Shown here one piece after another: positions 7,890 to 49,515 of a stretch of DNA of 49,515 bases (position 1 is the first letter of the stretch; each line of letters begins with the position of its first letter). Under the pieces are notes generated by a model. The model did no database searches. It was not told the DNA's origin and saw only the letters and a program-made list of their open reading frames with translations. The translations under genes were made by a program, and so were the position numbers. The stretch is taken from the IMG/VR virus record IMGVR_UViG_3300042988_000478, positions 1 to 49,515 of that record; one strand, written 5' to 3'. This stretch comes from a virus.

Positions 7890-8528
7890 CTACCCCGTAA
7901 ACTTATCTGCAACTGTCTTCTCCCTCATCTTGACAAGCATTTCCATTTGTTGTTCTGGTGTAAGCTTATCATCAACCTTTGCTAGGACAGCAATATGTTC
8001 AGTTGCCTCGCCTTGAATAATCTGTGATTTATCAAACATAATACCAAGAACCTTTGCAAGATTCACAATACTCTCCTTCTCAAGTTTCTTTGGTGATTTC
8101 GCTAGGATGTCCATTTTCTTATGCAGAAGAACGGCAGCCTTGTCTCTACCTTGCTTAAGAAGACCTGTTATATCATTAGGGTCTATTGGAGATAGTTTCT
8201 CAAACTCTGGCGCAACTGGCTTACGATTTGGAATAGACTTTCTCGAAGCCATAGCATCTTTAACCATAGTGACAACCTCATCAGATATACCAAAGTCTTC
8301 ATGATTAACCAATACCTCGTTGTATATTCTATTAACAGCTTGACGAATAGCGTTTCTATCAGCATAATATTTATCAAGCCCAAAATCAATACCTACCTCA
8401 TATAAAGGCTTAGTAGCTAATGCTTTAAAAATTGAATGTTTTCTTTCTGGTGTTATTGTTACCCCCATAAGCAGAGTGCGAGGGATGAGATGTCTCATAC
8501 GTCTTAATTGGACACGAGATACAATCAT
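7890..8528 (-). CDS. terS: Predicted terminase small subunit
   Basis: A 212-residue protein and first gene of the late block, 2 nt from terL. It has an N-terminal helix-turn-helix-like region (PLYEVGIDFGLDKYYADRNAIRQAVNRIYNEVL). A central helical oligomerisation-type region follows (LLKQGRDKAAVLLHKKMDILAKSPKKLEKESIVNLAKVL), then a charged tail. DNA-binding small subunits that recognise the packaging site have this plan. Assignment rests on gene order and architecture more than on sequence identity. The ATG at 8528 is 98 nt from the predicted late transcription start. Confidence 0.75.
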   Translation of the reverse strand: MIVSRVQLRRMRHLIPRTLLMGVTITPERKHSIFKALATKPLYEVGIDFGLDKYYADRNAIRQAVNRIYNEVLVNHEDFGISDEVVTMVKDAMASRKSIPNRKPVAPEFEKLSPIDPNDITGLLKQGRDKAAVLLHKKMDILAKSPKKLEKESIVNLAKVLGIMFDKSQIIQGEATEHIAVLAKVDDKLTPEQQMEMLVKMREKTVADKFTG

Positions 8529-8607
8529 CCCCCATACTCTACTCTCAATGGTTACATAAACGATTGAGTTGTAGAGCGATTAGTAATCCTAACCATAAAA
8601 AGGAACG

Positions 8608-8661: not shown

Positions 8662-8682
8662 GTATTTTACAAAAAATAAATA

Positions 8683-8691
8683 TGGTATAAT
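8683..8691 (+). promoter_or_regulatory. Extended -10 promoter TGGTATAAT for the first forward genes
   Basis: TGGTATAAT lies 19 nt upstream of the ATG at 8711. It is divergent from the late promoter, with the two -10 boxes about 50 bp apart. No good -35 is visible, which is usual for extended -10 promoters. An AAAGGAAAGG stretch before the ATG may act as ribosome binding site. Confidence 0.6.
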
Positions 8692-8710: not shown

Positions 8711-8902
8711 ATGTGCATTGAAGAACGAGCTTACCAATTGGAATTGGATCTTCGCGATCCTGATCAACCTCTGCTTCCTCTCTTTGATGAGGCAGCGTCG
8801 GCCGAGTGTAACCCAGTTACTGGGAGGAAGGTTCTTGAGAGGGAATCAGCCAGACACATCGGGGAAATCATCAAACAAATCACAGCTGAACTGAACGGAT
8901 GA
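8711..8902 (+). CDS. Small acidic protein of unknown function, coupled to HNH-like gene
   Basis: A 63-residue protein (MCIEERAYQLELDLRDPDQPL) with acidic first half and an Ala-rich helix; it ends IGEIIKQITAELNG. Its codons are visibly more GC-rich than neighbouring DNA. The TGA overlaps the ATG of the next gene (ATGA-type coupling). No family recognised. The pair looks like a small bacterial cassette. Confidence 0.7.
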   Translation: MCIEERAYQLELDLRDPDQPLLPLFDEAASAECNPVTGRKVLERESARHIGEIIKQITAELNG

Positions 8903-9144
8903 GCAGGAAGAAAAAGGGTTGTCCCCAAAAACTTACCCGCCACCATCGCAAACCAAGAAGTCGTGGAGGAGTCTCTAGTAAAAAGAACATCTCGTATGTT
9001 CCGGAGAATCTCCATACTGCGTGGCATACTCTCTTCAGCAACCACACCCCAGAAACAATCGCCTCAATCATCAACGAGAAGTGGATTGACCCAAACTTTG
9101 TCTTCATCTGCCTACCCAGAAAGAAGGAGTACAAACCAAGGTAA
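8899..9144 (+). CDS. HNH-like small protein
   Basis: An 81-residue protein with LTRHHRKPRSRGG followed by KNISYVPENLHTAWHTLFSNHTPETIASIIN. The HH, the Asn and the later His residues fit a compact HNH/His-Me finger nuclease fold, although two-Cys zinc knuckles are absent. Very similar short HNH-like proteins occur in bacterial genomes as genomic islands. It may nick DNA or be a degenerate, non-catalytic form. It is coupled to the upstream gene and followed by a terminator. Confidence 0.65.
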   Translation: MSRKKKGCPQKLTRHHRKPRSRGGVSSKKNISYVPENLHTAWHTLFSNHTPETIASIINEKWIDPNFVFICLPRKKEYKPR

Positions 9145-9201: not shown

Positions 9202-9229
9202 CCACCTGTAGAAATATGGGTGGTTTTTT
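9202..9229 (+). terminator. Rho-independent terminator after HNH-like operon
   Basis: CCACC (9202-9206) pairs with GGTGG (9219-9223) and is followed directly by six T residues. It ends the two-gene cassette. Confidence 0.75.
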
Positions 9230-9242
9230 CTTTATCAACCAC

Positions 9243-9271
9243 TTGCATTATTATTTAATATATGCTATACT
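9243..9271 (+). promoter_or_regulatory. Strong promoter (TTGCAT-17-TGcTATACT) for a small RNA
   Basis: TTGCAT at 9243-9248, a 17-nt spacer, and TATACT at 9266-9271 with extended TG. Predicted start is about 9278-9279. No open reading frame follows, only structured sequence. Same architecture as the promoter at 26694-26722. Confidence 0.75.
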
Positions 9272-9278
9272 TATATAC

Positions 9279-9427
9279 ATCTTGGGTGATAAAAGGCTGT
9301 AGCTCCCCCAAGAGGCTATGGCCTTTTGTTATTAAAGAGTTTGCACCCCATCAAAGGGTTCTATCGTGAGGTAGAATAGTGGTGATATTTCAACATACCC
9401 AGAGAATACTCTATATGTGTGTTGGAA
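9279..9427 (+). ncRNA. Candidate small structured RNA
   Basis: Downstream of the promoter a 13-bp helix (9291-9303 with 9315-9327) has two G-U pairs and an 11-nt loop. The loop contains CCCAAG (9307-9312), which is complementary to CTTGGG at 9281-9286 just before the helix, so a pseudoknot or a switch between two folds is possible. Next comes a 7-bp hairpin capped by a GTGA tetraloop (9359-9376), enclosed by CACC/GGTG. A further hairpin lies near 9391-9426. No matching known class recognised; the 3' end is uncertain. Confidence 0.6.
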
Positions 9428-9712
9428 CAGTTATGGTTTGGGGGGACATTTCTTTTTCTTTTCTTTAATTCTTCTAAGGTACTTCTTAAGGATTCTTTTC
9501 ACTTTTCTTTAAAAGTAAAGAAGGTCGTCAGATATATCCCAATAGAATATCCTATCCAGATATATGAAGGTGTGATACGAGTATATATGATATATGTAAT
9601 ACATACATATGGTAGGTGAAAGTTGTGGAGGGTAATTAATCTAAATTGGTTCCGCATACCCCCGTACCCCTGCCACCAGCTATCTCCTATTTACATTTAT
9701 GATTTTCTATGC

Positions 9713-9740
9713 TCTAGTATACACACGCATATATACTAGA
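9713..9740. repeat. Perfect 9-bp inverted repeat
   Basis: TCTAGTATA and TATACTAGA flank a 10-nt spacer. Spacing between half-site centres (about 19 bp, near two helical turns) suits a dimeric DNA-binding protein. Confidence 0.6.
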
Positions 9741-9920
9741 ATATATATACTTTATGGTACTTTTATATGGTATATGGTATATATGAGCCTCAAAATTGAC
9801 CTATAACGAGCGTTTGAAGTGGTACTGGTAGGTAGTATCCTATAATGTGAGCATGTGAGGGCTATATAAAACAGTGGTATGTATGTATAGGGAGAGGGTG
9901 AGGGGAGAGAGGTATATAGA

Positions 9921-10000
9921 TTGCATATATTTAAATACTCTTACATACACTTGCATATATTTACATACGTCTACATATATCTTTCCTTTTCCTTGCATAT
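9921..10000 (+). repeat. Three TTGCATAT direct repeats (iteron-like)
   Basis: TTGCATATAT begins at 9921 and 9951 (30 bp apart), and TTGCATAT recurs at 9993. They lie amid TACATA repeats. They could be iterons or initiator sites. Confidence 0.5.
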
Positions 10001-10259
10001 ACCTTTATATATCGTTACTTCTTTTTATGTATTCATAGTGTTAGATAGTGAGTGTGTATATATATGGTTTGCTGTACAGGGAATGGGAAGCAATCCTTTT
10101 TAGTATACTGTTCTATACTGTTTACTGCGCCATACTGTTTTATCTTTGTATATGGGCAGGTTATCCACATTTTATTTTTATTGTATAGTTGCATGGTTGC
10201 TGTATGGGTATATAATGTATTCATACAAGTTAAAAAGATTGTATATGGTACAAAGCACA

Positions 10260-10403
10260 ATGAAAAAAGAATTCCGTTACAAGTACATCAAGGCACGAAT
10301 TGCTACTATACTATTCTATGGTGTTGTAGGGTTTGTGATTGGATCAATGTATATTGTACACAAGGTTGTGGACGCATATTTATCGTTATTGGTTAGCATG
10401 TAA
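10260..10403 (+). CDS. Small membrane protein
   Basis: 47 residues from the ATG at 10260: a basic N-terminus (MKKEFRYKYIKARIA), then one transmembrane helix (TILFYGVVGFVIGSMYIV) and a short tail. An in-frame upstream extension to 10146 is possible but begins in repeat-like DNA. First gene of a five-gene run ending at the terminator at 11255. Function unknown. Confidence 0.5.
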   Translation: MKKEFRYKYIKARIATILFYGVVGFVIGSMYIVHKVVDAYLSLLVSM

Positions 10404-14319: not shown

Positions 14320-15291
14320 ATGAACATAGAACATAAGTATTGTGTAATGGGGAGTGATCCAGAATTCTTTTTCAAGCGTGACGGTAAGATTGTTGAGAGT
14401 AAACAATGTCTTGCAGATAAGGGGTTGAAGTATATTGTTGAGGACGGTATACAAGGTGAAATTCACCCTACTCCTAGCCAGTGTCGTGCAATATTGGGGG
14501 CAGAGTTCACAGATATATTCAATATAATGAGACAACAAAACTTAGAGGCACTTGCAGACTTCTCACAAAATGTCAAGTTGACAAAGGAGGAAATGGATAG
14601 TATACCAGATGATTGTAAGCGACTTGGTTGTAACCCTAGCTTAAATGTTAGTGAAGATGTCATACCTGTCAATATTGACGGCTTAGAATATCCATATCGT
14701 AGTGCAGGGGGTCACATACACATTGACACTGGCTCTAATACTAAAAATGAGCAGCTACGAAAGGACGCTATAAAGTTTATCAAACTTATGGACGTTGTTG
14801 TTGGCAATACTTGTGTGCTTATTGACAGGGATAAGGGCAACATAACACGTCGAAAGGTGTATGGACGTGCTGGTGAGTATCGTATAAAACCATATGGGTT
14901 GGAGTATCGAACATTATCAAACTTTTGGCTACGAAGCTACCCACTATACACATTTGTGTTCGGGCTGGCAAGGTATGTTATGTCACTCTACTTAAATGGA
15001 AAGACAGATGAGGTGCTTAGTCTAGTAGATTACAAAGACATACGGGAGGCGATAAACAAAAACGACAAAAAGTTGGCAAAGGCTAACTTTGATAAGATTA
15101 AAGGTATATTCCCTACTGGTGATTATAATAGAGCGCAATACTACAAGTCAGTGTTGGATCAAGAGACTATTCCAGTATTTGAGAAACTTATCAAGACTGG
15201 TATCATGGGGCGGTTCTCTAGTAAGGTTATTAGTAATTGGTTGGATAAACCTAGAGTTTCATTTGAAACTTGGATATTAAAGTACAAGTAA
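14320..15291 (+). CDS. COOH-NH2 ligase, phiEco32-type amidoligase
   Basis: 323 residues. Glutamine-synthetase-fold amidoligases join a carboxyl to an amine using ATP. Family features visible are GSDPEFFFKRDGKIV near residue 10, DGIQGEIHPTPSQCRA near 45, CNPSLNV near 105, YRSAGGHIHID near 127, and EYRIKPYGLEYRTLSNFWLR near 187-206. The acidic and His residues are those expected to bind metal and ATP. In phage phiEco32 this family occurs with an ATP-grasp enzyme and a class-II amidotransferase, all three of which are present here. Substrate unknown: peptide, amino acid or cell-surface group. Confidence 0.85.
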   Translation: MNIEHKYCVMGSDPEFFFKRDGKIVESKQCLADKGLKYIVEDGIQGEIHPTPSQCRAILGAEFTDIFNIMRQQNLEALADFSQNVKLTKEEMDSIPDDCKRLGCNPSLNVSEDVIPVNIDGLEYPYRSAGGHIHIDTGSNTKNEQLRKDAIKFIKLMDVVVGNTCVLIDRDKGNITRRKVYGRAGEYRIKPYGLEYRTLSNFWLRSYPLYTFVFGLARYVMSLYLNGKTDEVLSLVDYKDIREAINKNDKKLAKANFDKIKGIFPTGDYNRAQYYKSVLDQETIPVFEKLIKTGIMGRFSSKVISNWLDKPRVSFETWILKYK

Positions 15292-19011: not shown

Positions 19012-19040
19012 TTGACTTATGTAATACCATTTGTTATACT
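19012..19040 (+). promoter_or_regulatory. Promoter (TTGACT-17-TGtTATACT) for the ATP-grasp operon
   Basis: TTGACT at 19012-19017, a 17-nt spacer, and TATACT at 19035-19040 with extended TG. Predicted start near 19047, giving a 210-nt leader full of palindromes ahead of the gene at 19258. Confidence 0.7.
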
Positions 19041-19061
19041 ACTTCCAACAAGGACTTTGAC

Positions 19062-19206
19062 AACAGACATATAGCTATATATACCTTATATAAAGACATA
19101 TATAGCTATATATAAGTTTAAATATAGCTATATAGACATATATATAGCTATATACCTTATATAAGGTATATGTCTTATATAAGGTATATTATATATTATA
19201 ACATAT
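19062..19206. repeat. Dense AT palindromes (TATAGCTATA and ACCTTATATAAGGT)
   Basis: The self-complementary core ATAGCTATAT recurs at least four times. CCTTATATAA appears three times, once as a perfect palindrome ACCTTATATAAGGT. Base composition is almost entirely A/T. The tract can form cruciforms or RNA hairpins and may be a replication origin, an iteron array or an attenuating leader. Confidence 0.6.
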
Positions 19207-30120: not shown

Positions 30121-30190
30121 GCCTTCGCCTATTGGATTAGAAGCGGGCGTTCTAAGCCTGGCTATGGGGGTTCGAATCCCTCCGAGGGCA
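30121..30190 (+). tRNA. tRNA-Arg (anticodon TCT)
   Basis: Acceptor GCCTTCG/CGAGGGC with one G-U, a reduced D-arm CTA/TAG, anticodon stem CGGGC/GCCTG with loop GTTCTAA, T-stem GGGGG/CCCTC with loop TTCGAAT, discriminator A then CA. The anticodon TCT reads AGA. Confidence 0.88.
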
Positions 30191-49226: not shown

Positions 49227-49515
49227 TTATTTTCCGCTTAACGTGACCTCTCCGTAGATAGTACCTTTATTTGATGCAACACCTGTTTCTTTAGCAGATA
49301 CCTTCATGTATTTATACTGTATTTCTAGTGGAATTGATATTGTTGCGGCTGCTGCGTTTGTTCCAACAAAAGTAAATTCACGCGCTGCGAGAGTTGATGT
49401 TGCTCCAGATGTTGTATCTGTTGGTAGTCGGTACCAATTAACACCATCAGGGCTTGATTCAATTTTTATTTCTATTGAGTTTGAGCTTTCAGTCGCCCCC
49501 ATTGTATAGAGCACA
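49227..49515 (-). CDS. Virion beta-sandwich structural protein, C-terminal part (same gene as 1-403)
   Basis: Continuation of the gene at 1-403. On the circular unit, codons run from 403 down to 1 and on from 49273 to the stop at 49229-49227. In this window the last 242 bases repeat codons already read at 1-242, with Ala instead of Thr at residue 97. The unique part is 49227-49273 and encodes the end KGTIYGEVTLSGK. Confidence 0.8.
   Translation of the reverse strand, partial: VLYTMGATESSNSIEIKIESSPDGVNWYRLPTDTTSGATSTLAAREFTFVGTNAAAATISIPLEIQYKYMKVSAKETGVASNKGTIYGEVTLSGK
49274..49515. repeat. Terminal direct repeat (copy 2)
   Basis: Second copy of bases 1-242, with C at 49388 in place of T at 115. 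Confidence 0.95.

Follow-up and report, generated by a model that had tools for sequence, protein, structure and literature searches.

Genomic setting of the predicted RNA

The window, by which we mean the whole stretch of 49,515 bases analyzed here, is the virus contig IMGVR_UViG_3300042988_000478. The same reading frame occurs at both termini (33 to 236 and 49306 to 49509), which suggests a complete genome whose ends overlap. From 8528 leftward lie the late genes (terminase, portal, and major head protein), and from ∼10.3 kb rightward lie early-type genes (primase-helicase, exonuclease, GroEL, and amidoligases). The region under study, 9243 to 9427, lies between the two. The kin of this phage are other uncultured phage contigs, and a Patescibacteria host is plausible since a neighboring protein has homologues in a Candidatus Taylorbacteria genome and a few further genomes of the same phylum. 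Two strong hairpins surround the terS start (8471 to 8582; the 70-nt segment at 8471 folds with −28.5 kcal/mol, z −5.8), and one of them includes a GGGGGATGA stretch just 5' of the probable terS start codon.

An inserted cassette (8711 to 9144, + strand) precedes the region and carries a 63-amino-acid (aa) open reading frame (ORF) (8711 to 8902) and an 81-aa HNH-like ORF (8899 to 9144). Its promoter at 8663 to 8691 ranked 11th with the clade-trained matrix described below, and a terminator scan placed the intrinsic terminator of the cassette at 9202 to 9232 on the + strand with a d score of 24 (24.4 for 9202 to 9223). The 81-aa protein has homologues in other phages and in Patescibacteria, and its matches to the Pfam HNH model (E 0.035) and to an IscB model (E 0.07) were both below threshold. 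It belongs to a small family of HNH-like proteins of 65 to 85 aa (window 8899 to 9144; L012 to L018, L026, L027, and L032 to L035) with the motif HHRKPRS-GG-N-H-AWH-LF and no zinc cysteines, with members scattered over unrelated phages and over Patescibacteria, among them an apparently interrupted copy in Taylorbacteria (L027). We rejected a tie between the RNA and the HNH-like gene: no such RNA accompanies the relatives of this gene in L012 to L018, L026, and L027, and the gene itself is served by its own promoter and terminator. A HEARO or IscB omega RNA was also rejected, the neighbor being only this 81-aa, sub-threshold HNH-like protein and a corresponding Rfam match being absent.

Searching the whole window with Rfam at gathering score returned two tRNAs and nothing else. 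In a separate part of the genome (29982 to 30190), a promoter-like site that ranked 6th in the clade matrix lies after tRNA-Gln and precedes two tRNA-like folds that ARAGORN did not detect; one of these (30121 to 30190) is a sub-threshold Rfam tRNA (24.1 bits versus 29).

Promoter and fold

We built a promoter matrix from the terS promoters of 25 relatives, with the window excluded; their common pattern is TTGnnn-17-TGnTATAmT. Across ∼99,000 window positions on both strands, the promoter at 9243 to 9271 (+ strand) ranked 2nd and the phage's own terS promoter 4th, and the remaining top sites were mostly directly 5' of genes. This result bears out the predicted TTGCAT-17-TGcTATACT promoter, which consists of TTGCAT (9243 to 9248), a 17-nt spacer, and TATACT (9266 to 9271) with a TGc extension and has an expected transcription start at ∼9277. 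A generic sigma-70 scan did not include 9243 to 9271 among its listed sites because TTGCAT/TATACT fits only 4 + 5 of the 12 consensus bases. The clade-trained rank is the best evidence that this region may be transcribed. A promoter near-identical to it (TTGCATTATTATCCATGATATGCTATAAT) lies upstream of terS in L144 (90 to 335), and the same phage contig has an array of 15 tRNA genes (L144:1152-3418).

The main hairpin (9280 to 9338, + strand) has 19 continuous pairs (9285 to 9303 with 9315 to 9333), two apical pairs past a one-base bulge at 9314 (9304 to 9305 with 9312 to 9313), four basal pairs (9280 to 9283 with 9335 to 9338), and the loop CCCCAA (9306 to 9311). The 13-bp helix that had been proposed therefore exists, but its length was understated. 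The + strand (9285 to 9336) folds with −24.6 kcal/mol (z about −5.0) versus −15.4 (z −2.3) for the − strand, a difference due to six G-U pairs among the 19 continuous ones. This strand bias suggests that selection has acted on the + strand RNA rather than on symmetry of the DNA. Among 2,826 overlapping 70-nt segments from both strands, the main hairpin had the 3rd lowest energy and the 12th lowest z. As a whole, 9243 to 9427 gave a z of −4.2, with none of 200 shuffles as stable.

Two further hairpins follow. The GTGA-capped hairpin of the original prediction is present with a lower stem at 9349 to 9384 (+ strand; 9349 to 9353 with 9380 to 9384, and 9358 to 9365 with 9370 to 9377) and forms part of the minimum free energy structure, but alone it is not significant (z −1.0 to −1.5). 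The third, at 9388 to 9427 (+ strand), has 11 + 4 pairs and is significant (dG −13.6, z −3.45). Beyond it, a G run leads into a T/C-rich tract, TTTGGGGGGACATTTCTTTTTCTTTT (9437 to 9462, + strand), and the loop segment CCCCCAA (9305 to 9311) is complementary to the G run (9437 to 9445), with a duplex energy of −15.0. Taken together, the promoter rank and the strand-specific fold support a transcribed, structured RNA well, and the reading first given to it stands in part.

That reading included a possible pseudoknot or two-state switch built on pairing between CTTGGG (9281 to 9286) and CCCAAG (9307 to 9312). The complementarity is real and extends to 7 bp, with TCTTGGG at 9280 to 9286 and, by direct reading, CCCAAGA at 9307 to 9313 (both + strand); a 7-bp match arose in 0.23% of shuffles of both 12-nt stretches (P = 0.002). 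When we folded the growing chain, the 7-bp alternative was best (−10.1) for nascent 3' ends from 9314 to 9320, and the long hairpin took over from 9323. At equilibrium in a 60-nt chain, the hairpin reached −25.0 versus −8.2 for the alternative (−10.1 with inner pairs), a gap of ∼15 kcal/mol. The two pairings had been thought to compete or coexist, and competition holds only as a predicted cotranscriptional intermediate. Full coexistence looks geometrically implausible since in a full H-type pseudoknot 0 nt would cross the 17-bp stem and 1 nt the 7-bp stem; a shortened pseudoknot, with ∼4 pairs and a 9-bp stem, would fit the geometry. We rejected a regulated attenuator or riboswitch, as the mutually exclusive folds are so unequal. 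The complementarity fits a transient folding intermediate in these models, and a true switch or pseudoknot, in which this pairing would decide whether the transcript continues and for which no homologues were found that could display covariation, is very unlikely.

Conservation and the gene-free stretch

The original prediction looked to relatives for conservation of the helices, and we found none; the closest relatives by capsid, L002 and L003, stop short of the site. The capsids of the L002/L003/L011 lineage are ∼86% identical. The RNA had no Rfam family match, with just spurious miRNA matches around it (E up to 5), and neither exact nor purine/pyrimidine-relaxed hairpin patterns matched anything in viral and bacterial collections. 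A blastn search against phage records and related contigs gave no real match to the RNA. Covariance models (R1 and R2) of the whole RNA and of the hairpin recovered the window alone from related records and ∼115 fetched loci, among which were counterparts of the site in relatives, and these models rest on one sequence, so distant relatives could escape. The whole-RNA model, run without a positive control, found only the window itself when 379 genomes of the Patescibacteria phylum were included. A search for closer relatives through the gene at 14320 found none, and a literature search returned nothing on the window RNA.

We rejected a conserved RNA family of the phage clade: the relatives inspected go from terS to a conserved noncoding element without the RNA. 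Compared with L004 and L011, the nearest relatives that cover the site, the window has ∼900 bp extra between terS and this element, made up of the two-ORF cassette with its promoter and terminator and then the RNA, which places the RNA in lineage-specific inserted sequence relative to those inspected. On present evidence, the RNA appears to be an orphan rather than a new class.

The conserved element (GGGGTA - spacer - CCCCNTACCCC) lies at 9628 to 9669 on the + strand. Of the 42 relatives scanned, 21 carry it, where shuffles predict 0.85. In the inspected relatives, it follows terS by ∼100 to 900 bp. Upstream of terS, also in L004, L047, L131, and L051, it reads ATAAAATTT-nn-GGGGGTA, 15 to 45 nt, and GTCCCCNTACCCC, and a second G-rich block lies some 100 to 250 bp beyond it. 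The element could be an origin, a packaging site, or an early-control site. Strong promoters lie 5' of the element in the window, L134, L045, and L063 and 3' of it in L131 and L047. None of these loci has strong promoters on both sides, which hints weakly that the promoter in the window may substitute for a downstream early promoter.

No protein gene was expected downstream for ∼980 bp, and this is confirmed: the next credible start codon is at ∼10262, ∼835 bp past 9427 and ∼985 bp past the expected transcription start. The further step, that the RNA is likely the product since no gene follows, finds no support, because relatives without the RNA share a long gene-free stretch after terS. A long AT-rich, gene-free stretch at 9560 to 10250 has TACATA/GCATAT repeats with 10-bp spacing (9921 to 9977) and lies near the cumulative GC skew minimum (∼9 kb). 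It is likely a replication or packaging control region.

L045, a more distant relative and a single comparison case, has an RNA at the same genomic site upstream of terS. Its promoter, TTGACG-17-TGaTATACT, is directly divergent from its own terS promoter and, like that of the window, is a strong TTG-N17-TGnTATACT promoter leading into folded sequence. The L045 RNA (L045:910-1006, − strand) has 80 nt and a z of −4.5 and forms a three-way junction, whereas the window RNA forms a long hairpin. Searches for homology between the two in sequence and structure, in both directions, gave no significant match. In both loci, GGGGGAC-TTTTCTTTT and then the conserved element follow the RNA; the tract is GGGGGACTTTTCTTTT in L045 and, in the corresponding position, GGGGGGACATTTCTTTTT in the window. 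The resemblance may be coincidence. An improbable alternative is that, in this phage clade, the interval from terS to the conserved element serves as a niche for early RNAs that are promoter-driven and strongly folded and whose sequence is replaced completely from one lineage to the next, the window and L045 RNAs being independent, with a shared GGGGGAC-T/C tract and with the window RNA folding via a switch-like intermediate.

Proposed roles: structured leader or small RNA

The feature is real, though an orphan, and most likely of an ordinary kind: a lineage-specific RNA leader or small RNA. In our best explanation, to which we give a little less than even confidence, the RNA is the folded 5' part of a transcript that is noncoding or an early leader. 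Transcription would proceed rightward from ∼9277, driven by a host-type promoter belonging to the class that the clade uses before terS, and the initial 150 nt would be strongly folded and carry no coding sequence. The main hairpin would arise within the first 60 nt via the short-lived CTTGGG:CCCAAG hairpin and could then protect the 5' end, slow RNA polymerase, or both. The most likely continuation is read-through into the gene-free control region on the early side, because the hairpin would be a weak terminator at best (borderline score of 0.8 at 9295 to 9323, with the tail TTTTGTTATT, versus 24.4 for the cassette terminator) and a scan of 9340 to 10262 found no other before the early genes at ∼10262. 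The quality of the promoter, the fold with its strand preference, and the absence of homologues and of a strong terminator downstream are results of the analysis; production of the transcript, its read-through, and a protecting or pacing role of the fold are inferred.

Besides the 2nd-ranked promoter and the + strand fold (z −4 to −5) with its six G-U pairs, two comparisons favor the structured leader. Other gene-distant promoters of the same matrix in the window (3499−, 8661−, and 19012+) also lead into folded leaders (z −3.5 to −3.8 over 100 nt) and those abutting a gene do not, a pattern noticed after the fact. In L045, the corresponding position is taken by a different structured RNA behind a strong promoter, with GGGGGACTTTTC and the conserved element farther on, although this is one case. 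Against the structured leader, 985 nt is long, and most relatives have no such promoter before the conserved element, so the clade does not require one. As a side observation, the promoter-like site at 19012 to 19180 is followed by AT-rich hairpins (TATAGCTATATA repeats), and the genome's most extreme z (−6.3) belongs to the 70-nt segment at 19041.

The weak terminator score also bears on the suggestion that the hairpin chiefly serves as an additional terminator or an insulator after the HNH cassette, the RNA itself being of little importance. The layout of A-tract, stem, and T-tract and a position 50 bp past a strong terminator would suit that role, but the hairpin comes after, not before, one of the genome's best promoters, with no known gene between them, and the G-U pairs favor a + strand RNA. 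We consider this role quite unlikely.

The main rival to the structured leader is a trans-acting small RNA, which we regard as possible but doubtful. An autonomous regulatory RNA of ∼55 to 170 nt would have its 3' end either at the main hairpin or close to the T/C tract, and its C-rich loop (CUCCCCCAAG) would pair with G-rich mRNA sites, such as GGGGGAU 5' of terS. The dedicated strong promoter is consistent with this proposal, as is the hairpin followed by its T-rich tail with a positive, if borderline, terminator score. The top predicted target of the loop was the terS leader (−13.5 kcal/mol), but 13% of shuffled loops matched or beat it when phage start regions were scanned, and neither a homologue nor covariation speaks for retention of the loop. 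Bacterial small RNAs with C-rich loops include the RNAIII-type RNAs with UCCC loops. Like them, the window RNA has a stable hairpin exposing a C run; unlike them, its predicted targets are at chance level, and its 3' end is only putative.

By the clade-trained matrix, then, a likely Patescibacteria phage has, beside its packaging genes, a strong promoter into highly folded noncoding sequence. If transcribed, this would be an RNA to study in phages whose hosts' RNA biology is hardly known. For the structured leader, the nearest known systems are the promoter-proximal hairpins of phage mRNA leaders, which include 5' stabilizers, pause or attenuation hairpins, and the HK022 put-type antiterminator RNAs. 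The window RNA differs from these in its absence from relatives, and any antitermination by it would be conjectural. Like these leader hairpins, the put type included, it begins to fold within a few nucleotides of a strong promoter, and a long gene-free stretch leads from there to the early genes.
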